In this document: positions 2,297-61,730 of the stretch, piece after piece
Numbering within the stretch: the first letter of the stretch is position 1
Layout of the letters: each line of letters begins with the position of its first letter
Assembly: GCA_902778105.1 (NCBI GenBank)
Contig: CACYWN010000021.1
Span: 1-64,000 of the forward strand
DNA length: 64,000 bases
Direction: 5' to 3'
Source of the DNA: an uncultured Bacteroidia bacterium
GTDB taxonomy: Bacteria; Bacteroidota; Bacteroidia; Bacteroidales; UBA932
Position numbers and translations under genes: made by a program
Notes under the pieces: generated by a model
Seen by the model: the letters and a program-made list of their open reading frames with translations, nothing else
Databases searched by the model: none
Told to the model about the DNA's origin: nothing

Positions 2297-2389
2297 ATGA
2301 GAGATGATTTTCTTATAGCCCTCTCCCCAACAATCCGGTATGGGAGAGAGGAGAAACCAACACGATAAAGTGATTTAAACGAATACCTG

Positions 2390-2781
2390 GAGGACGTGGA
2401 ATGAGAATCGAGGAAGCCATCGTATATGTCCTCTCCACTTAAGGCTACGGAATGAAAACGGAAAAGGATCGCCGAGGAGATCAACTCGCGCAGGCTGCAT
2501 GTCCGGAAGGACGGAAACAGGTACTCCGCTCGCATTCGCATGACCCCGTCTGCGCATTGCTCGATGCCGCTGATCATGGGAAGGTCCAGAACGGCGTAGC
2601 CGAAGTACTGTCCATAAGCCAATGAGCCGTCGTAGTAATGCATGTGGCTGCCCCTTTCCTTGAGCGGGAATTCACGGATGAATGCCCCGAAACTACCATT
2701 CGGCAGGTCAACCCTCTCGTACCCCAGGGGAGGACGGATGTCCCCGATCGTGTCCCTTCCTGCCGGATTGCTTACCCCGCC
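2390..2781 (-). pseudogene. remnant of a DUF4846 protein gene (N-terminal part)
   Basis: On the minus strand the frame from 2781 reads GYERVDLPNGSF, then FPLK, YYDGSL and QCADGVMRMRAEYLF, in the order seen in DUF4846 proteins (GY.RV...SF...LR.LPLK, LYDG, QCADAVMRLRAEYL). After the AEYLF motif at about 2517 the similarity breaks up and jumps between frames, and no start codon is found in the proper place. A downstream piece may lie at 237-405, with the Sel1 gene now in between. I read this as a gene inactivated by insertion and frameshift. Confidence 0.6.
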
Positions 2782-2864
2782 CGAAGTGCCAGAAAGTCCA
2801 TTTTCGAGTCAGAATGTCTGCTTTGGGGCCGATGCGGCCGTGGGTTTCAGGGGTATGGAAGTGC
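2782..2864. repeat. 83-bp direct repeat, right copy
   Basis: Perfect copy of 154-236. Its right end at 2864 touches the stop codon (2865-2867, minus strand) of the acetyltransferase gene, so the repeat begins exactly where that gene ends. Confidence 0.95.
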
Positions 2865-3446
2865 TTACCGGACGTAGCGGTCGCGGTCGTCGGGGGAGAG
2901 GGGGCGGATGACGCGGCAGGGGTTGCCGGCGGCGAGTACCCCGGGCGGGATGTCCTTGACGACGACGGAGCCTCCGGCGATGACGGAGCCGCTGCCGATG
3001 GTGACGCCGGGCATGACGCACACCATCCCGCCAATCCAGACATCGTCCCCGATGGTGATGGGCAGGGAGTATTCCAGTTTCCGGCGCCGGAGATCCTTGT
3101 CCAGAGGATGGCCCGCCGTGTAGAATCCGCACTGCGGGGCGATGAACACGTTGCTGCCGATGGTGATTTTCGCCTCGTCCAGGAAAACGCAATAGCCGTT
3201 GATGAAGACGTTGTCGCCGAATTCCAGGTTGGACCCGTAGTCGCAGAAGAAGGGCGGGACGATGGTAAGGCCGCTCCCTTTGTGGGGCAGCAGCTTGTCA
3301 AGGAGGGCGGCGCGGCCTTCGAAATCGGTGATGCGCAGGGCGTTGTACTCCTGGCAAAGTTCCTGGGCCCGGTACAGTTCGCCGAGGAGTTCCCCGCTCG
3401 AGGCGTCATACAGACGGCCGGACATCATTTCTTCCCGGATGTTCAT
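2865..3446 (-). CDS. sugar O-acetyltransferase (maltose/galactoside acetyltransferase family)
   Basis: A 193-aa left-handed beta-helix acyltransferase that would move acetyl from acetyl-CoA to a sugar. The N-terminal segment ([12 protein letters not shown]) is the maltose-acetyltransferase cap; hexapeptide repeats run from about residue 70, with the catalytic-site signature FYTAGHPLD near 110-118 and the closing [10 protein letters not shown] near 175-184. Full family length. Its stop codon abuts the right copy of the 83-bp repeat. Six bases separate it from pgeF upstream on the same strand, so they are probably co-transcribed. The sugar substrate cannot be deduced. Confidence 0.9.
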
Positions 3447-20250: not shown

Positions 20251-20376
20251 AAAAGCGGATAAACTGGCCCTGGAAAGCAGATAAGCCATGTCAATCCGCT
20301 TTTCCCTATTTCTAAACTGCCTCAAAAGCGGAGAGGAATGGCCTGGAGACCGTACAGGGACGATGGACCCGCTTTT
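20251..20376. repeat. 126-bp REP doublet, class 1 (53-20-53)
   Basis: Two 53-base units: 20251-20303 begins AAAAGCGGAT and ends ATCCGCTTTT; 20324-20376 begins AAAAGCGG and ends CCGCTTTT. The space between them is exactly 20 bases. The inner 33 bases of each unit differ, but can partly fold. The same geometry is seen around the RAYT gene at 36174. The rest of the 469-base gap between asnA and tpiA holds only the two promoters. Confidence 0.85.
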
Positions 20377-29961: not shown

Positions 29962-30087
29962 AAAAGCACACCCATTCCTGAATGATAGAGCTGAGCGCAT
30001 GCGCTTGTTCGTTTCCTTCATTCTGAAAACGGGGAAAAGAACATGAATAGATGAAATACTGTCTCTGACTCGTTCTAATGCTCTTTT
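29962..30087. repeat. 126-bp REP doublet, class 2, downstream of RAYT 1
   Basis: Units 29962-30014 (AAAAGCAC...GTTCGTTT) and 30035-30087 (AAAAGAAC...GCTCTTTT) are each 53 bases with exactly 20 bases between them. The central GTTCGTTT-20-AAAAGAAC recurs at 31313-31348. Confidence 0.7.
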
Positions 30088-30174
30088 GTTTTTGTCTATC
30101 AGGTTCCCAAGACAGCTCTTTTTGCAGATTTCGATGAAGGGGTACGGACCGTCCCTGGTTCGCAAAACACTGAC

Positions 30175-31074
30175 TCAGTGGAATACTGCCTCTATGATGG
30201 CCGGATTCATCTTGACGGCCCGGGCCAGCTGCTTTCGGGACAATGTTCGACGGTTCTGCCACAGTATTTTTGCAACCTCAATGCGTTCCGCTTGGGTCAG
30301 TTTCGGAATGCGGCGTCCGAACCGCCGTTCGCTTTCTGAATTGGCTTCCTCATTCAGTTCGGAATCGCCCCTTTTTTCAAGAAATACCCTTGCGTCGTGA
30401 GCTTCCTGCTCCGCCAAGTCCTTTTTCCTGACAAACAGGAAAGAAATGAACCTTTTGGGAGAGCCGAATAGCCTCTGGACAGCATCGGCATCCACAAAGC
30501 AGCGGGGAAGGACCATTCCGTTTTCATCTAACTGCCAGTCGTCCGGAATCGCTATCCGGGTGCGGAATAGCATCCATTTTTGGCGGACGGTCAAGTCACC
30601 GACCCGCTTCACCGGGCGATCGGAAGCCGGATGAAAAAACAGCCGGCCCACGCCCCAGGGATAATCCTCAGGCAAGAACGGATACCCGGCGTCCATGGGA
30701 TTCCGGAAAACGTAGATGATTTTTTGCATCAGTTCGATGTCGTCCCGAATGGGTTCCGGGTGGATCCAGATCCCATCATTCAACAGGTAGTCCCTTCCGG
30801 TACGATGGAAATACATGGTCAACAACCTTTTCATTTGGATTGTGAACGAGGCGATGTCTTCCGCCTTGCCTTGGGTGATGAGATGGAAATGGGTATCCAT
30901 TACAACAGGACAATATACACGGAGTTTGTATCTGTGGGCCAGTACGGCGATCAGATTCATTGCAAAAACCTTGTCTTTCGGTAATTCGAATAGGACGGAC
31001 ACCCGGGTCCCATCCGAACAGATGTGGTAGCAATCCTGAACAGGATGCCGTTCCCACTGCACATAACTCTCCAT
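30175..31074 (-). CDS. REP-associated tyrosine transposase (RAYT 1, Y1/IS200-like)
   Basis: A 299-aa HUH-type transposase-like protein. The metal-binding HUH motif is His62-Phe-His64 in MDTHFHL and the nucleophile is probably Tyr121 in YVFRNPMDAGY. The C-terminus has a helix-turn-helix (TLSRKQLARAVKMNPAII). The ATG at 31074 was chosen because the same MES...VQWERHPVQ start is conserved in the paralogue at 36174, which has the same length and aligns along its whole length. Doublet repeats lie 87 bases after the stop and 193 bases before the start. RAYTs nick and mobilise REP elements rather than their own gene. Confidence 0.9.
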   Translation of the reverse strand: MESYVQWERHPVQDCYHICSDGTRVSVLFELPKDKVFAMNLIAVLAHRYKLRVYCPVVMDTHFHLITQGKAEDIASFTIQMKRLLTMYFHRTGRDYLLNDGIWIHPEPIRDDIELMQKIIYVFRNPMDAGYPFLPEDYPWGVGRLFFHPASDRPVKRVGDLTVRQKWMLFRTRIAIPDDWQLDENGMVLPRCFVDADAVQRLFGSPKRFISFLFVRKKDLAEQEAHDARVFLEKRGDSELNEEANSESERRFGRRIPKLTQAERIEVAKILWQNRRTLSRKQLARAVKMNPAIIEAVFH

Positions 31075-31117
31075 CACAAATCGTTTTTGCAAAGATCGGA
31101 AGAAAAAACCGGACGAG

Positions 31118-31134
31118 CCGTTTTTAAACGTTTA
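31118..31134 (-). promoter_or_regulatory. 17-base motif shared by both RAYT leaders
   Basis: On the minus strand TAAACGTTTAAAAACGG, identical to 36107-36123 before the second RAYT gene and 43 bases from the ATG (50 in the other gene). It contains the palindrome TAAACGTTTA. Could be a promoter-operator or a binding site of the RAYT protein itself. Confidence 0.6.
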
Positions 31135-31267
31135 TCTGAAAAAACGCCATCTGAACTGTATTCCATGGACATTTTATCAACAAATGGCTGGAATAACATG
31201 TTAAAACAATCGGCACGATAAGGCAAGGCAGTTATCAGTTGCCCTTTTGCTCCTTTTTTGAGAAAGG

Positions 31268-31393
31268 GAGCGAACGCCAAGTGGCAAATAATGCACTATG
31301 ATTAAGCATTGTGTTCGTTTCCCCCAAATTAAAAACGGGGAAAAGAACACGAGATATAGATATGGGCCAAGAATCACAACTCCCTGTGCGTTT
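31268..31393. repeat. 126-bp REP doublet, class 2, upstream of RAYT 1
   Basis: The central palindrome GTGTTCGTTTCCCC (31311-31324) and GGGGAAAAGAACAC (31337-31350) pairs with one mismatch; GTTCGTTT and AAAAGAAC are exactly 20 bases apart. The right unit ends near GTGCGTTTT (31386-31394); the left unit is more degenerate. The rest of 31075-31441 holds no gene. Confidence 0.6.
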
Positions 31394-31441
31394 TGTTTGG
31401 ACAAAAGTTCAGGGAGCCGTTCAATTCGAAGTTGCTGAGCG

Positions 31442-32026
31442 CTAGAACCGCAGCGCCATGCCCACACCGGAAGGTGTCGGGCCGAAGGTGAGTTCGGCCG
31501 CAGGGGTGACGGGAGGAAGACCGGCCGCATCGCAGGATGCGGCAAGGTTGCGGAGACGGTGGTTCCCGACACAGAGAAGGACGACGCCGGTCGTGCCGAC
31601 AGCGATGCCGGCCAGCATCGCCGCACCGCCGATCTGGACCCGGGGACCCATGTCGTCCCACATCTTGTCCACGGCCTCCTGGCCGCCGATGGCGGCGAAA
31701 ATCGAACCGACCACACCGGCCAGCAGATAGACTCCGCCATAACAGAGTCCGGCGACGGCCAGGGTATAGCCGCCGGCCGTGAGTCCGATTCCCCAGCCCC
31801 GCTGGTCTACGTACCGGTCCCATTCGGCGACCATTTCCGCACCGCCGACCTGGTCCAGCAGGGCGCGCGTCGTTTCCTGGTCCAGTTTTTCTCCCAGGAC
31901 GGCGATTCGCGCCCCTTTCATTTTCAGGTCACCCTGATGCCATTCGGGAACATACTGGGCATGGCCATTCAGGCAGGCCAGGGAAAAGACGAAGACGATC
32001 AGCAGGATCCGTAAAAATGGTTTCAT
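31442..32026 (-). CDS. exported protein of unknown function
   Basis: A 194-aa protein from the ATG at 32026 with a signal peptide ending near GHAQ. A soluble stretch (residues 25-80) is followed by two glycine-rich hydrophobic segments (about 82-110 and 128-152) and a final TFGPTPSGVGMALRF, a Phe-terminated end like those of outer-membrane proteins. I do not recognise the family. A TATTTTTG box lies 24 bases upstream. Confidence 0.65.
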   Translation of the reverse strand: MKPFLRILLIVFVFSLACLNGHAQYVPEWHQGDLKMKGARIAVLGEKLDQETTRALLDQVGGAEMVAEWDRYVDQRGWGIGLTAGGYTLAVAGLCYGGVYLLAGVVGSIFAAIGGQEAVDKMWDDMGPRVQIGGAAMLAGIAVGTTGVVLLCVGNHRLRNLAASCDAAGLPPVTPAAELTFGPTPSGVGMALRF

Positions 32027-32050
32027 CGACGCAAGCAGTTGGTTCTTTCG

Positions 32051-32058
32051 CAAAAATA
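32051..32058 (-). promoter_or_regulatory. -7 box of the 194-aa exported protein
   Basis: TATTTTTG on the minus strand, overlapping the gene-free space just before the ATG. Confidence 0.5.
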
Positions 32059-32066
32059 GGAAATTA

Positions 32067-32984
32067 TCACGGGTCGGCAAGCAGGCAGCGGGATAATTTC
32101 GCATAATGGTCTTCCGAAAGGATGCCGGCCTTGTGCAGTCCCTCGACCGTCCAGGCTTCCCTGGGTTGGTGGGCGCGGTACAGGACGACCGAATGCGCTT
32201 CTTCCTTCGAAAGATAGGGATGGCGGGCCAAATCGGCCTCGGAGAGTGTCCAGAGGGGGTAAGGTGTCGGTTTTGAACAGGCGATCAGGTCTTTCAGCCC
32301 GTCATATTTCTCCTGGTCGAAATGATAGATGTCCATCAGCTGCTCCGGGTGGGAATAGCCGCCGAGTTCCTTCCGGTAGGAGACCATCTTCGCGGCGAAA
32401 TACGGCCCGATGCCCGGAAGTGTCTCGAAGGCGGCGCTGTCGGCCCGGTTGATGTCGATCCGGGGAATGTCGATATAAGGCTGCAGCCGCTCAAAGACGG
32501 AATCGGCTACCACATAGGATCTGGCGAAATCCGACGGACGGCGGAAACGGCCGCCTTTGGCCCGGTAGTTCAGGATGGACTGCGCCTGCTTCTCGGAGAA
32601 GCCCAGCCGCATCAAGTCCTCCAGCGAAGCCGTGTTCGGATTGAACCGGAAGGACTCCACCCGGCGGGGGGACGCTTTCTCCCGGATGCGGACGGCTTCG
32701 GGCGCGTGCTCCGACTGTTTCCGGACCGTAACCATGCCCTGGACCGGCTCCGAAGGCCGTCCGGAGGGATGGCTCCCCGCATCCTGCCCGGACAGGATTT
32801 CCTCCGCCAGGGCCCGGTCCACGACGTACACCGTGTCCGGCCGGTCCCGGTCCGCTACGATACGGGTCACGGCCGCCTTGTGGACGAACAGGGCGACTTG
32901 ATAACCGATGATCAGGAAAACGAGCGCGATGGCGCCTACCGTGAAACTACGAGTCGGATTCTTCTGTCTCTTCCCCTCTTCCAT
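32067..32984 (-). CDS. membrane-anchored helix-hairpin-helix protein (ComEA-like)
   Basis: A 305-aa protein: cytoplasmic basic tail, one transmembrane helix (about 15-35), a variable linker, then repeated HhH motifs: FNPNTASLEDLMRLGFS (about 118), INRADSAAFETLPGIGPYFA (about 190) and a weaker one near 265-295. The arrangement resembles ComEA, which binds DNA during uptake, but three HhH units and length make it a distinct Bacteroidetes type. Overlaps rsmI by 38 bases. Confidence 0.8.
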   Translation of the reverse strand: MEEGKRQKNPTRSFTVGAIALVFLIIGYQVALFVHKAAVTRIVADRDRPDTVYVVDRALAEEILSGQDAGSHPSGRPSEPVQGMVTVRKQSEHAPEAVRIREKASPRRVESFRFNPNTASLEDLMRLGFSEKQAQSILNYRAKGGRFRRPSDFARSYVVADSVFERLQPYIDIPRIDINRADSAAFETLPGIGPYFAAKMVSYRKELGGYSHPEQLMDIYHFDQEKYDGLKDLIACSKPTPYPLWTLSEADLARHPYLSKEEAHSVVLYRAHQPREAWTVEGLHKAGILSEDHYAKLSRCLLADP

Positions 32985-33684
32985 AGCGCTTCTTTTTGAC
33001 AGGTTTTACCGGCTCCGCGCCGGCGACGACAAGGACGATTTCGCCTTTGGGTTCATGCTCCCGGAACCAGGCGGCGACTTCCTGGAGGGAGCCCCTGCGA
33101 TGCTCCTCGTGCATTTTGGATATCTCTCGGGCGACAGAACAACGGCGATCCGGTCCGAAATGCTCCGCCAGCTGTTCCAGCGTCTTGACGAGCCGGTATG
33201 GCGATTCATAGAAAACCATCGTGCGGGTCTCCGCCTCCAGCGCGGTCAGGAGCGTCTGCCGTCCCTTTTTCTGCGGAAGGAAGCCCTCGAAGCAGAAACG
33301 GTCGCAGGGCAGGCCGGAGGAAACGATGGCCGGGATGCAGGCCGTCGCTCCGGGAAGGGTCTGCACCTCGATTCCTTCCTCCGCACACGTGCGGGCCAGC
33401 AGGAAACCGGGATCGGAGATGCCGGGCGTGCCGGCATCGCTGATGAGGGCGACGTTCAGTCCCCCCAGGATGCGTTCCTTCACCAGCTGGACGGTCTGGT
33501 GCTCGTTGAACTTGTGATGCGACTGCAAGGGCCGCCGGATGTCATAATGATGCAGGAGGACCGAGCTCGTACGCGTGTCCTCCGCCAGGATCAGGTCGGC
33601 TTCCTTCAGGACCTGGACCGCCCGGAAGGTCATGTCTTCGAGATTCCCGACCGGCGTCGGGACGATATACAGCTTTCCCGCCAT
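32947..33684 (-). CDS. rsmI: 16S rRNA (cytidine-1402 2'-O)-methyltransferase
   Basis: A 245-aa member of the tetrapyrrole-methylase fold. Signatures: YIVPTPVGNLEDMTFRA, LAEDTRTSSVLL, HEHQ-like FNEHQT, ALISDAGTPGISDPG and FEGFLPQKKGRQ. It methylates C1402 in 16S rRNA. Start overlaps the stop of the upstream gene, and its own end overlaps the HhH gene. Confidence 0.95.
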   Translation of the reverse strand: MAGKLYIVPTPVGNLEDMTFRAVQVLKEADLILAEDTRTSSVLLHHYDIRRPLQSHHKFNEHQTVQLVKERILGGLNVALISDAGTPGISDPGFLLARTCAEEGIEVQTLPGATACIPAIVSSGLPCDRFCFEGFLPQKKGRQTLLTALEAETRTMVFYESPYRLVKTLEQLAEHFGPDRRCSVAREISKMHEEHRRGSLQEVAAWFREHEPKGEIVLVVAGAEPVKPVKKKRYGRGEETEESDS

Positions 33685-34370
33685 CAGCCCAGTTTCTTGC
33701 GGATGGCCATCATGAAGTTGTAGACGATGTCGGACTTGAAGTTCCAGTCCGGGAAGGTCTCCACCAGATAGTCGACGGCTTCGTCCAGGGTGCCCATGGC
33801 ATTGAGGGTGCCGATCGTCTGGTCATAGAGGGCGTAGTCTTCCTTGAACAGGGTGCCGATGAAAAGGGCTCTGTCATACAGGGAGATGCCGCTGCGGATG
33901 TTCTTGACCGCCACGCCGGGTTTGTCCAGCCGCCACGCCATCCTTTCCGTATCCGGTTTCGGGGCAGCCGGCTTCACCGGTGGAACGGGTGCCGGTTCCT
34001 CCGGATCGGGCGCAGGTACTTCGAACACGCGCACGGGCTGCTCAGGTGCCGGTTCCACAGGCAGATCCTCGACAACCGGCCCGGGCTCGACCGGCAGGTC
34101 CTCCGGAACCAGGTCGGGCTCCTCCGGAAGGGGTGCAGGCTCTTCCGGCTGGGATGCAGGTTCTTCCGGCAGGTCGGCCACGCCGATTTCCATGTCCGTG
34201 AAATCAACTTCGTCCGGCGCGGGTTCCGGGGCAGGTTCCGCCGCGGCCTCTTCCTCGGCGGCAAGCCGCTGGTACGCAGCGAGCTGGTCCTCCAGCCCCC
34301 GGATCTGGTCCTTGAGCGAAGCGATGGCCGCTTCGATTTCTCTCAAGATTTCTGTGCTGTTTTTCTCCAT
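33684..34370 (-). CDS. coiled-coil, Pro/Glu-linker protein of unknown function
   Basis: A 228-aa protein in three parts: a coiled coil (residues 5-40), a very acidic Pro-Glu-Ala repeat-like linker (about 40-130) and a compact C-terminal domain (about 140-228) with SGISLYDRALFIGTLF and FPDWNFKSDIVYNFMMAI. I believe the last domain is conserved in Bacteroidales but know no function. Linker length is probably variable. Divergent from tdk; first gene before rsmI. Confidence 0.75.
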   Translation of the reverse strand: MEKNSTEILREIEAAIASLKDQIRGLEDQLAAYQRLAAEEEAAAEPAPEPAPDEVDFTDMEIGVADLPEEPASQPEEPAPLPEEPDLVPEDLPVEPGPVVEDLPVEPAPEQPVRVFEVPAPDPEEPAPVPPVKPAAPKPDTERMAWRLDKPGVAVKNIRSGISLYDRALFIGTLFKEDYALYDQTIGTLNAMGTLDEAVDYLVETFPDWNFKSDIVYNFMMAIRKKLG

Positions 34371-34377
34371 AAATGAC

Positions 34378-34385
34378 TATCTTTG
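34378..34385 (+). promoter_or_regulatory. -7 box of tdk
   Basis: TATCTTTG, 28 bases before the tdk ATG. Confidence 0.6.
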
Positions 34386-34413
34386 TCCAAGTCAACATTA
34401 GCAAAGTAAGGAA

Positions 34414-34992
34414 ATGTTTTTGGAAAACACAAGAAAATCGGGCTGCATTGAAGTGATCTGCGGTTCGATGTTCTCCGGCAAGACGGAGGAACTCATCCGG
34501 AGGCTCAAGCGCGCCCAGTTCGCCAAGCAGAAAATCGCCACGTTCAAGCCCACCATCGACAAGCGCTATTCGGACCTGGATGTCGTCTCGCACGATTCCC
34601 ACAGCATTTCCTGCACCCCCATCAAGTCTCCTTCCCGGATGCTCCAGATCGACCCGGACGTGGAGGTCGTCGGAATCGACGAAGCCCAGTTCTTCGACGA
34701 GAGCATCATCTCCGTCGCCCAGGAACTGGCCGGCCGCGGCATCCGTGTGATCATCGCCGGACTGGACACCGACTTCCTGGGGAAGCCCTTCGGCCCGATG
34801 CCCGGTCTCATGGCCATCGCCGAGGACGTCCAGAAGGTCCATGCCATCTGCGTCCGCTGCGGCTCCCTTGCGAACCATTCCCACCGTCTGTCCGCCAGCA
34901 AGAAACTGGTCGTCCTGGGAGAAAAGGACACCTATGAGCCACTCTGCCGCGATTGCTACAACAAGGCGCTGAAGGAAGACCAGGAGGGATAG
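34414..34992 (+). CDS. tdk: thymidine kinase
   Basis: A 192-aa type II thymidine kinase. P-loop [14 protein letters not shown] near residue 17, DEAQFFDE with the catalytic Glu near 90, and zinc-binding cysteine pairs in CVRCG and CRDCY. Phosphorylates thymidine for salvage. The next gene starts two bases after its stop. Confidence 0.95.
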
Positions 34993-34994
34993 CT

Positions 34995-35669
34995 ATGAGA
35001 AGGTTTCATTGTTCGATACTTCTGATCATCGCCTTTGCGATGTCCTCCTGTGGAACGGCACGGTATTATGCCGGATTCACCCCGGCGACCGCCTCGGAAG
35101 GGATGGTCCTGCTGGGCCCCAGTTCTGTCCAGTTCTATCTGGACGACAAGAACGTGGAGTCCTATGACGATTCCCTTTCCACGGTTTCCGAAGCGTTGAT
35201 CGCCACGCTGGTCAATGACATGCCCCTCCCCATCACAGGGCGGATTCAACTGGATTCCCTCCGGAAAGAGGAGGCGGTGGGTTTCATGCGGTTCCTGAAT
35301 ACCAAGGACGCCAAGGTCAGGGGAGAGTATCCGATTCCGGACTTGCTGGACGAAATCCTCGAAGCGGAAGGCCGGCGCTACGGCCTGCTCATCTATGCCG
35401 ATGGCATGAGCCGGGATACGAAAGGCTATGCGAAGGAAGTGGCCAAGGATGTCCTCCTGGGAGTAGCCACCGCCGTGCTCACGATGGGAATGGCCTCCAT
35501 CTACGGCACCTCGGTCTACTGCGTCTCCCACATCTATGCCGCCATCCTGGATTCCGAAACGGACCGTATCGTCTTCTACAACATGTCCGTTCCCACGGAA
35601 AGTCACCCGCTCAAAATCGGCCCTGTCCGCAAGCAGCTGGACGGCATCTTCCGCGATTTCCTGAAATAA
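34995..35669 (+). CDS. lipoprotein of unknown function
   Basis: A 224-aa protein with lipobox MSSC (Cys15). The middle is soluble with RYGLLIYADGMSRD; residues about 150-175 form a hydrophobic, glycine-rich segment that could insert in a membrane. No family recognised. Its stop lies five bases before a REP doublet. Confidence 0.7.
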   Translation: MRRFHCSILLIIAFAMSSCGTARYYAGFTPATASEGMVLLGPSSVQFYLDDKNVESYDDSLSTVSEALIATLVNDMPLPITGRIQLDSLRKEEAVGFMRFLNTKDAKVRGEYPIPDLLDEILEAEGRRYGLLIYADGMSRDTKGYAKEVAKDVLLGVATAVLTMGMASIYGTSVYCVSHIYAAILDSETDRIVFYNMSVPTESHPLKIGPVRKQLDGIFRDFLK

Positions 35670-35674
35670 AAACG

Positions 35675-35800
35675 AAAAGCGTATTACTGCTCAACGTAGA
35701 GCTCCTGAATGTGTTCTGCCCGCTTTTGCCTGCTTTAAAAGTATGGGAAAAGCGGGCAGATCATTGACTGGCTGCGTGAGATTGCTGTTCATCCGCTTTT
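35675..35800. repeat. 126-bp REP doublet, class 1, upstream of RAYT 2
   Basis: Units 35675-35727 (AAAAGCGT...CCGCTTTT) and 35748-35800 (AAAAGCGG...CCGCTTTT), 53 bases each, 20 bases apart. Across the gap a perfect 13-bp inverted repeat is present (TCTGCCCGCTTTT 35715-35727 and AAAAGCGGGCAGA 35748-35760). Confidence 0.85.
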
Positions 35801-35947
35801 CCTTTGGTAAGCATAATCAATGGTGTTTTCATCAAACTCACCCCAAGAAGGATTCCACGCATCTTTCCACGACTGATATTCCCAACCTGCCTCGTTTTTC
35901 ATATAGTCATAGACATTCTTGTAATTTTTAGTGGTAATAATGTGTAA
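35789..35947 (-). pseudogene. C-terminal remnant of an unidentified gene
   Basis: A minus-strand frame without an in-frame start at its head, rich in W, Y, D and N (KNVYDYMKNEAGWEYQSWKD, then WNPSWGEFDENTIDYAY), composition typical of real protein. Its stop TGA overlaps the end of the REP unit (AGC GGA TGA). Probably the tail of a lost gene. The AT-rich rest of the gap (35948-36173) has only the RAYT leader. Confidence 0.4.
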
Positions 35948-36106
35948 TCATCAGAAGCGCTTTTTAATATAAATATTCGCAATTGTTTGGTATTTAGTTA
36001 TTTGTTCTTGTTCATTGGACAACTGATACAGGGCTCCCTTTTCTTTTTACGTTAAAATAGTGCGTTTCATTCCGTGTAAAAAGCTGGATCAGAGCAATTT
36101 ATAACT

Positions 36107-36123
36107 TAAACGTTTAAAAACGG
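36107..36123 (+). promoter_or_regulatory. 17-base motif shared by both RAYT leaders
   Basis: TAAACGTTTAAAAACGG, identical to the minus strand of 31118-31134. Here the palindrome extends to 12 bases, TTAAACGTTTAA (36106-36117). Confidence 0.6.
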
Positions 36124-36173
36124 ATTAATTGGAAAATACTCCCCATCTTTATCCGGAACAAGTGACGTTGATT

Positions 36174-37073
36174 ATGGAGAGTCAAGTGCAGTGGGAAAGG
36201 CATCCGGTCCAAAATTGCTTCCACGTATTCTCGGACGGAACGGTTGTTTCCGTCCTGTTTGAAACCCCTCGCGACAAGGTGTTCGCCATCAACCTGATGG
36301 CCATCCTTGCCTGGATGTATCATCTCAGGGTGTATTGCGATGTGGTGATGGATACACATTTCCATATTGTCGTGCAGGGACTGCCGGAAGACGTCGCCCG
36401 TTTCGAGATGCAGATGAAGCGGCAGTTGACCATGTATTTCCGTCGCACGGGGCGTCCGGAACTGCTGAAGGCCGGGATCTGGATTGACCACGAAGTGATC
36501 AAAGACGATGTGGAACTGATGCAGAAGATCATTTATGCCTTCCGGAATCCGATGGATGCCGGGTATCCGTATCTTCCTGAAGATTATCCTTGGGGCGCAG
36601 GGCGTTCATTTTTCCATCGGGAAGAAATGATGGCGGCACGTAGGATAGGGGATATGACACAGGACGAGAGGAGGGCGTGGTTTCACACGCGGGAGAAGCT
36701 GCCGGAGGATTGGCTGGTAGATCGTGAGGGAATGATTTTGCCTTGTTGCCGGATAGACCTGAAAGCAGTTCATCGCCTGTTCGGTTCTCCCCGCCGTTAC
36801 ATCTCCTTCCTATTCGTGAGGAAGAAGGATTTGGCCGAACAGGATGCGAAATGCGCCAGCATCTTCCTGGAGAAACATGGAGATACGGAACTGCGTTCGG
36901 AAGCAGATGAGGAAGGAAAGCGCCTTTTTGGTCGCAAGGTTTCCAAACTGTCCCTGGCGGAACGGATTCAAGTGGCAAAAGTCCTGTGGCAGAACCGAAG
37001 GACGCTCTCCCGCAAGCAACTTGCTCGCGCCGTCCGGATGGCCCCGGCCGTCATCGAATCGATTTTCCATTGA
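36174..37073 (+). CDS. REP-associated tyrosine transposase (RAYT 2, Y1/IS200-like)
   Basis: A 299-aa paralogue of the protein at 30175-31074, with His62-Phe-His64 in MDTHFHI, Tyr121 in YAFRNPMDAGY and the same C-terminal helix-turn-helix (TLSRKQLARAVRMAPAVI). The central stretch after residue 165 is the most divergent. It is bracketed by class 1 doublets (35675-35800 and, 13 bases after the stop, 37086-37211). It probably acts on class 1 elements, including the distant ones at 20251 and 61678. Confidence 0.9.
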   Translation: MESQVQWERHPVQNCFHVFSDGTVVSVLFETPRDKVFAINLMAILAWMYHLRVYCDVVMDTHFHIVVQGLPEDVARFEMQMKRQLTMYFRRTGRPELLKAGIWIDHEVIKDDVELMQKIIYAFRNPMDAGYPYLPEDYPWGAGRSFFHREEMMAARRIGDMTQDERRAWFHTREKLPEDWLVDREGMILPCCRIDLKAVHRLFGSPRRYISFLFVRKKDLAEQDAKCASIFLEKHGDTELRSEADEEGKRLFGRKVSKLSLAERIQVAKVLWQNRRTLSRKQLARAVRMAPAVIESIFH

Positions 37074-37085
37074 TTTTTGCAAAGG

Positions 37086-37211
37086 AAAAGCGGATAACCA
37101 TGCTTTTGAGAGTGTCTGTGGCATGTCAATCCGCTTTTGTCGGGTTTTAAAATAAGGGAAAAGCGGATGAAAGGAGTTCAGAAAGCGTATATCCGATGTT
37201 CATCCGCTTTT
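37086..37211. repeat. 126-bp REP doublet, class 1, downstream of RAYT 2
   Basis: Units 37086-37138 and 37159-37211, both starting AAAAGCGGAT and ending ATCCGCTTTT; 20 bases apart. In the second unit the complementary arms reach 13 bases (AAAAGCGGATGAA and TTCATCCGCTTTT). Confidence 0.88.
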
Positions 37212-37373
37212 CCTTTATAAAAAGGGAACGGTCAAATAGTTCTAGCGCGGAACGGAGTCCTCCGGGTGGGTGCTCCTTTCCTTGAAATAAACAAAAATAA
37301 ACGGAGCTGGCTCAAGGCGAGTCGGATCCGTTTGTCAGTGTACGGCCAGGCGATGCAAGGAGATTGTTCCCCG

Positions 37374-37475
37374 TCAGTAGACTATGTCCATGTCGGCGAG
37401 GTCGAAACTGCCGGAGCCGTCGATGGGGACTCCGTAGGTTCCATTCCTCCGTTTCCCGTTGCTGTCAATAGGCAG
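37374..37475 (-). other. in-frame open stretch after the recA stop
   Basis: After the TAA of recA the same frame stays open for 33 codons (starting LPIDSNGKRRNGTYGVPIDG, ending FDLADMDIVY) and then meets TGA. The composition is protein-like. It could be the remnant of a longer recA tail or chance. The rest of 37212-37373 shows nothing I can name. Confidence 0.3.
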
Positions 37476-61677: not shown

Positions 61678-61730
61678 AAAAGCGGATAAACTGGCCCTGG
61701 AAAGCTTGTATGCCAGGCCAATCCGCTTTT
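61678..61730. repeat. solo 53-bp REP unit, class 1
   Basis: AAAAGCGGAT ... ATCCGCTTTT, 53 bases. The inner part also pairs (TGGCC.TGG with CCAGGCCA). The first 27 bases equal those of the unit at 20251. No second unit at the 20-base distance. It lies 20 bases after the barrel gene and, with the T-run that follows, may end its transcript. Confidence 0.85.

Follow-up and report, generated by a model that had tools for sequence, protein, structure and literature searches.

Palindrome pairs spaced by whole helical turns flank RAYT genes of a Bacteroidales lineage

Background

Why are certain nuclease genes bracketed by pairs of palindromes, and why is the distance between the members of a pair so regular? 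These questions are raised by a stretch of 64,000 nucleotides (positions 1 to 64,000 of contig CACYWN010000021.1, assembly GCA_902778105.1; hereafter the window) from an uncultured bacterium of the order Bacteroidales, whose genus is probably Cryptobacteroides. It encodes two homologues of HuH Y1 transposases of the RAYT type, RAYT 1 (30175..31092, minus strand) and RAYT 2 (36174..37073, plus strand), and on either side of each gene lies a 126-bp doublet composed of two imperfect palindromes. Studies of how RAYT proteins recognize and copy repetitive extragenic palindromic (REP) sequences have focused until now on hairpins in single-stranded DNA. Here we report that the centres of paired hairpins beside RAYT genes of this family are separated by distances close to whole turns of the DNA helix. 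The interpretation we favour, with a probability of roughly 0.6, is that genes and repeats together form REPtron-like units, belonging to a Bacteroidales lineage of RAYTs for which the substrate is a helically phased pair of palindromes.

Results and Discussion

Spacing of the paired hairpins

The centre-to-centre distance of the two hairpins in a doublet clusters near 52, 62-63, 73 and 84 bp, i.e. 5, 6, 7 and 8 helical turns. An earlier note on the window had described a rigid layout of two 53-bp units exactly 20 bp apart; the regular spacing stands, but it is a ladder of whole helical turns and not one number. As a single fixed geometry 53-20-53 was dropped: unit lengths of 42, 43, 53 and 54 bp occur, the hairpins come in many lengths, and regularity is confined to the centre-to-centre distance. 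The ladder was proposed from the periods in the first 44 RAYT loci (50-53, 62-64, 72-74 and 83 bp) and fixed before 80 new loci were fetched. A significant doublet was found at 56 of these 80 held-out genes, and 51 of the 56 have a spacing within 50-54, 61-65, 71-75 or 82-86 bp, the five others being 42, 44, 45, 66 and 87. At a period of 10.5 bp the held-out genes give a Rayleigh R of 0.80, compared with 0.044 for 1908 shuffled best matches (resampled p 5e-5), with a mean phase of -0.84 bp. All 53 flanks (37 genes) that score 30 or more, a cut-off picked afterwards, lie on the ladder, including 35 out of 35 held-out flanks, and no spacing of 55-60 or 67-71 bp occurs among 101 genes. The standard deviation in the 5-turn doublets (n=59) is 3.8 for unit length and 0.77 for the centre-to-centre distance, and in the 37 genes with significant doublets on both flanks the period is equal within 1 bp in 36. 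The quantization itself is well supported, while its significance across independent lineages is moderate. Whole-turn spacing suggests that the doublet is read on double-stranded DNA. In the open-access literature on RAYT/REP, REPIN and TIRYT systems we found no report of such spacing.

The main alternative, which we consider unlikely, is an ordinary RAYT/REP(IN) system acting on single-stranded hairpins only, with whole-turn spacing as a frozen accident of a few successful repeat lineages. The clustering of spacing class on the gene tree (18 changes versus a shuffled mean of 44) speaks for it, as do the spacers of many 5-turn classes, which look similar by eye, and the E. coli RAYT, described as acting on single-stranded REPs (PMC8266576). 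It accounts less well for the presence of four ladder values, not one or two, for the two empty intervals, and for switches of the ladder among genes that are close relatives and share their arms. The 101-gene tree has 18 changes of spacing class including off-ladder values, 10 of them among ladder classes; the spacing passes from 62-64 to 75 bp in the clade of the TAAAGCAC/GTGCTTTA repeat class, where the arms stay the same, and a different clade shows a step from 61-62 to 84 bp.

As a separate observation, a pair of T-tracts, offset by about one helical turn, is often present in 5-turn spacers (L013, L016, L265, L284, L291 and L292), a pattern suggestive of shared ancestry or of an intrinsic bend.

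Hairpin classes beside RAYT genes

The claim that each gene has its own class of repeats holds family-wide, with left and right flanks matching. At 44 RAYT loci the upstream and downstream flanks share on average 25.6 9-mers within a gene, compared with 3.1 between genes; the between-gene maximum (19, among 1892 pairs) is exceeded within the gene by 17 of the 44 loci, and at least one locus has no 9-mers common to its two flanks. A scan for paired palindromes detected doublets in 41 of 86 flanks of the first 44 loci, in 82 of 159 flanks of the 80 held-out genes, and in 18 of 45 flanks of the RAYT 2 clade, the last figure covering loci L071-L098 except for five of the 28 (L078, L092, L094, L096 and L097) that are incomplete or near contig ends. 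The control, 301 tiles of unrelated DNA of the same genus, gave doublets in four, one of which resembles a dispersed RAYT-type doublet. Significant doublets, one or more per gene, accompany 11 of the 15 RAYT genes in the window's own genome.

Several other repeats were noticed in the course of this survey. One RAYT gene of the window's genome (L012, contig C18) lies between long arrays of 50-bp palindromic units (860-1314 and 2313-3185), with 13 register positions on one side; the arrays have a CRISPR-like regularity, but the units are palindromic and there are no separate spacers. Near RAYT genes (L013:277-340 and L014:517-615) there are also short repeats in direct orientation, TGTCATTCCGAGCG..., apparently members of a separate intergenic family. 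At L058:3154 in genome G028, away from the RAYT matches of that stretch, a solo doublet has perfect palindromes that repeat with a period of 51 bp (GCGTCCC/GGGACGC).

Copy number and the unit of spreading

The earlier note had proposed that the copy number of the repeats should follow the presence of the corresponding RAYT, and when this was examined it held, copy number following the RAYT in one class (TAAAGCAC/GTGCTTTA). The core of the RAYT 2 repeats (the AAAAGCG class), CCGCTTTT-N20-AAAAGCGG, occurs in one of 400 genomes of the genus, namely the window's own, in six copies (reversed control, 0). RAYT 2 itself was likewise found only there, the 400 genomes being scored on the best five first-look candidates per genome, and the next-closest protein (66% identical) is that of a sister species, G093, at the position of RAYT 1. 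Under a strict 53-bp pattern with up to two mismatches the own genome has 11 matches (10 with at most one mismatch, and one chance-like), while nine relatives have 0-4 each, all with two mismatches (reversed control, 0-2); this count is incomplete, because the pattern misses 54-bp units such as one that remains in G093. The second class was searched as GTGCTTTA-N19-22-TAAAGCAC, a core present at 290 places in 23 of the 400 genomes, with the reversed control matching seven genomes. It is found in 15 of 16 genomes with a RAYT of the related clade (39-43%) versus 8 of 384 others (Fisher 1e-20, a value that overstates independence because the genomes are related), and it peaks at 56 copies in genome G061.

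The geometry of the TAAAGCAC class was measured at 40 of its 290 places, drawn from genomes other than the two with the highest copy numbers (G061 and G263). Of the 41 clusters in these stretches 29 are doublets, three single, eight triple and one quintuple, in a search whose pattern itself demanded two adjacent arms. With unit length left free over 30-64 bp, the units measure 42 (63 cases), 43 (17), 53 (1), 54 (8) or 60 bp (1), while the spacers, bounded by the core search, are of 20 (13) or 21 bp (36). In the 18 doublets of equal length (9 of 27, having other lengths, were excluded from this count) the modal base reaches a mean frequency of 0.56 and 0.60 inside the units, compared with 0.41 and 0.42 in the 30 bases beyond the doublet, the arms being fixed by selection and so giving no evidence here. 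It seems that the doublet itself spreads, because similarity drops to background beyond the outer arms. The two units of a TAAAGCAC doublet are more alike in direct than in inverted orientation in 24 of 28 cases (mean identity 61% vs 36%); eight doublets of the RAYT 1 and RAYT 2 classes are ambiguous in this respect, direct identity being higher in five.

The doublets of the window

The four 126-bp doublets named in the earlier note were confirmed at 29962..30087, 31268..31393, 35675..35800 and 37086..37211, each with 53-20-53 geometry. Their four-way arm-pairing scores, out of a maximum of 32, are 26, 24, 30 and 32, respectively, compared with a best score of 22 in three shuffled windows. The class labels had been swapped in that note: doublets of the AAAAGCG..CCGCTTTT type bracket RAYT 2, with the one at 35675 on its 5' side and the one at 37086, whose outer arms reach AAAGGAAAAGCGGAT / ATCCGCTTTTCCTTT, on its 3' side. 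RAYT 1 is bracketed by the AAAAGAAC/GTTCGTTT class, which is more decayed; the doublet at 29962 (3' side, centre-to-centre 73 bp) is found at the same place in G093, and the partly decayed one at 31268 (5' side) has a near-identical counterpart beside the RAYT 1 orthologue of G093. The earlier note had overlooked two further AAAAGCG-class elements: a third doublet, which is perfect and dispersed between asnA and tpiA (20251..20376), and a solo unit (61678..61730).

Units of exactly 53 bp, as claimed before, are the rule inside the window, but dispersed AAAAGCG-class copies on contigs C4 and C18 combine 53 and 54 bp. Similarly, the inner 33 bases are unshared among the RAYT-flanking units, but the second units on C4 and C18 and the solo unit are visibly alike inside. 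The statement that the interiors fold anyway is only partly correct: relative to controls with arms kept and interiors shuffled, the mean z over 11 window units is -0.76, and in three of the four RAYT 1 units z is at least -0.02. On contig C4 of the same genome two AAAAGCG-class doublets (C4:45158 and C4:46355; L001/L002) lie 1.2 kb apart, and their likeness continues past the doublets, around a gene for an outer-membrane-protein-like product, probably as a result of local duplication.

The RAYT proteins

The identification of both products as RAYTs is supported as distant homology, by sub-threshold profile matches and by a fold match. RAYT 2 has 299 amino acids from its ATG, within a frame open from a TTG at 36129, and carries the motifs THFH and YAFRNP; RAYT 1 (THFH, YVFRNP) is 67% identical to it, and its match to RAYT 2 starts at the ATG at 31074. 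The NCBIfam family REP_Tyr_transpos (NF047646) is matched with E values of 1.1e-6 and 6.7e-10 (28.6 and 39 bits, below the curated cut-off of 80), while Pfam Y1_Tnp matches eight of 49 relatives (best 7.8e-5), RAYT 2 itself being unmatched. With the AlphaFold model of RAYT 2 (pLDDT 85.4) as a query, the first-ranking PDB structure, and the only one with E below 1e-3, is 4er8, the E. coli RAYT on a REP hairpin (E 4.7e-4; TM 0.61 by target length and 0.36 by query length). H62 and H64 of the HuH motif, Y121 and N125 are invariant across 49 sequences, and the P following N varies; two relatives, L123 (with a stop) and L144 (length indivisible by three), were excluded from the protein alignment. 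The C-terminus of the model forms helices 261-273, 280-286 and 291-297, and Pfam HTH_22 is matched by just two of the 49 relatives (best E 0.0043).

In its own genome RAYT 2 matches 15 places, one being RAYT 2 itself and the others 23-67% identical to it. A search of 61 genomes gave matches at E <= 1e-10 in its own and in 30 of 36 others of the genus, and none in the 24 that represent other families of the order. Named relatives at 50 loci all come from Bacteroidales/Bacteroidia assemblies, and their sources, where stated, are nearly all the rumen, ruminant stomach or other animal gut.

Comparison with sister species

Over the stretch compared, identity between G093 and the window is 91-93%, and G093 has RAYT 1 with both its doublets at the same place, whereas neither RAYT gene is found at the corresponding places in a further genome, G003. 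The interval between tdk and recA spans about 450 bp in G093 and about 2,490 bp in the window, where it holds RAYT 2, its doublets and a putative lipoprotein gene (34996..35669, plus strand) that is missing along with RAYT 2 from G093 and G003. The asnA-tpiA interval is about 370 bp in the window and about 35 bp in G093 according to BLAST, the missing 340 bp or so including the doublet at 20251. No clean insertion of exactly one doublet was seen at the tpiA and recA intervals relative to G093 and G003. The solo unit at 61678 is situated at a rearrangement breakpoint, the gene order there being different from that in G093.

Three neighbouring features are added here for completeness. In G093 (contig C76, L181/L182) about 940 bp more than in the window are present between the left RAYT 1 doublet and RAYT 1, corresponding to positions 30153-30154 of the window; they contain an open frame that by eye resembles an S41-type peptidase and is missing from the window's genome. 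Next to recA, positions 37280-37475 appear to be what is left of a gene for a small secreted protein, of which G093 and G003 have a longer version. Two of 20 stretches downstream of recA (in G028 and G009) have a different RAYT adjoining recA.

These comparisons bear on a second alternative, in which an autonomous transposon (a TIRtron) with the doublets as its terminal inverted repeats moves the RAYT gene as a single unit, dispersed doublets being deletion derivatives. The absence of RAYT 2 and both its doublets from the same place in G093 and G003 and the extra frame enclosed by the RAYT 1 doublets of G093 agree with this idea, but the RAYT 2 insert holds a gene outside the doublets, and the genome has no fresh near-identical RAYT copies, because identities to RAYT 2 among its 15 genes are only 23-67%; we regard it as improbable. 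It is more improbable still that the hairpins are RNA-level elements such as terminators or 3' stabilizers, repeated by chance and unrelated to RAYTs: they are intergenic and many fold, but they match on both sides of each RAYT, are rare in the same-genome control tiles, co-occur with one RAYT clade and have a whole-turn spacing for which RNA has no need.

A proposed mechanism

If the doublets are indeed helically phased substrates of REPtron-like units, each RAYT, a homologue of HuH Y1 nucleases with a helical C-terminal extension, would recognize its own class of imperfect palindromes, and the functional and spreading substrate would be a pair of palindromes or a short array, i.e. the doublet, and not a single palindrome. 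For a RAYT oligomer to engage both palindromes together, either via the C-terminal domain or via a pair of hairpins that the duplex extrudes, the two would have to share one face of the helix. The doublet might then be copied by nicks at the AAAG/CTTT feet and transfer of a single strand, in the manner of IS200/IS605, and family members in one genome would diverge both in the sequence of their arms and in how many turns separate the palindromes. A more speculative extension, which we offer tentatively and as somewhat less likely to be right than wrong, is that HuH nucleases read paired hairpins by helical phase on the duplex, with the number of turns (5, 6, 7 or 8) and the arms together forming the identity of a pair and letting a dozen or more RAYT systems coexist without cross-talk.

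Several results weigh against the helically phased pair as the substrate. Part of the anti-correlation between measured unit and spacer lengths is built in by the symmetrical extension of the arms. Related genes share their spacing by descent, and eight of the 18 changes on the tree involve off-ladder values; counting each change as one draw gives p = 0.12, because nine weak matches (score 26-28) lie off the ladder. At scores of 28 or more four of 79 genes are off the ladder and at 30 or more none of 50, with five changes, both of these stricter cut-offs having been picked afterwards. The 50-bp arrays (L012 and L303) deviate by about 2.5 bp from the optimum of 52.5 bp, and the scan detected no doublet at 24 of the 80 held-out genes and at four of the 15 genes in the own genome. 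G093, in which RAYT 2 was not found, retains one AAAAGCG-class remnant (a 54-bp unit and spacer), so that this class predates the split from G093. Finally, the species comparison yielded no precise empty site or target duplication, and the interval differences between species exceed the size of a doublet.

Relation to known systems

Taken as REPtron-like units, the loci resemble the RAYT/TnpA-REP REPtrons and REPINs of Pseudomonas and E. coli in that a HuH Y1 gene is flanked by its own palindromes, dispersed copies occur in the genome and the doublet is the spreading unit. They differ in several respects. REPIN doublets are inverted (PMC3116915), while TAAAGCAC-class doublets here are mostly direct. 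The GT[AG]G foot of canonical REPs is absent from both strands of the five window doublets. RAYTs are characterized as single-copy and vertically inherited (PMC8049555), in contrast to 15 divergent genes in one genome and a presence that varies between sister species. In the flanks of one E. coli gene, rayT, which has REPs that our scan does not register, no helical quantization was seen: the REP centres lie 45.5 and 55.5 bp apart, not at whole turns, so the whole-turn rule may be special to the Bacteroidales lineage.

Other relatives are the TIRYT/TIRtrons, long RAYT relatives whose flanking inverted repeats are not REPs and in some cases form dimers or clusters (PMC3733652), and TnpAY1 subclass 2.1, for which PMC6006769 gives C-terminal helix-turn-helix-like domains and no REP-like sequences beside the genes. 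Both share with our family the combination of long RAYT relatives and flanking repeats. Unlike in subclass 2.1, palindrome pairs flank most genes here, and GGGGWSAS, a motif of the flanking repeats in the TIRYT/subclass 2.1 group, is not found inside the five window doublets, nor within 60 bp of four of them, with a single match 44 bp outside the fifth; helical spacing is not reported in the consulted parts of either description (PMC3733652, PMC6006769). Subclass 2.6 comprises Bacteroidetes RAYTs with 'atypical secondary structures' and no GT[AG]G, as stated in the available section of PMC6006769, and is similar to our family in its host group and in having flanking structures that lack this foot. 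However, the median length given there is 179 amino acids, compared with about 300 here, and the doublet geometry does not appear in that section. With the IS200/IS605 elements IS608 and ISDra2 the family shares the HuH Y1 fold (2vic and 2xma are among the fold matches) and the presence of a hairpin at either end of what is mobile, but no near-identical copies of a mobile gene were found in the window's genome and the proteins are twice as long.

Conclusions

The whole-turn rule makes a concrete prediction: 5-bp insertions between the hairpins should abolish function, while insertions of 10 or 11 bp should not. If it is true, the pairing of sites on duplex DNA would be a part of recognition by RAYTs. 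A genus in which many of these proteins reside together, each with its own repeats, also offers natural specificity pairs for working out their recognition code.

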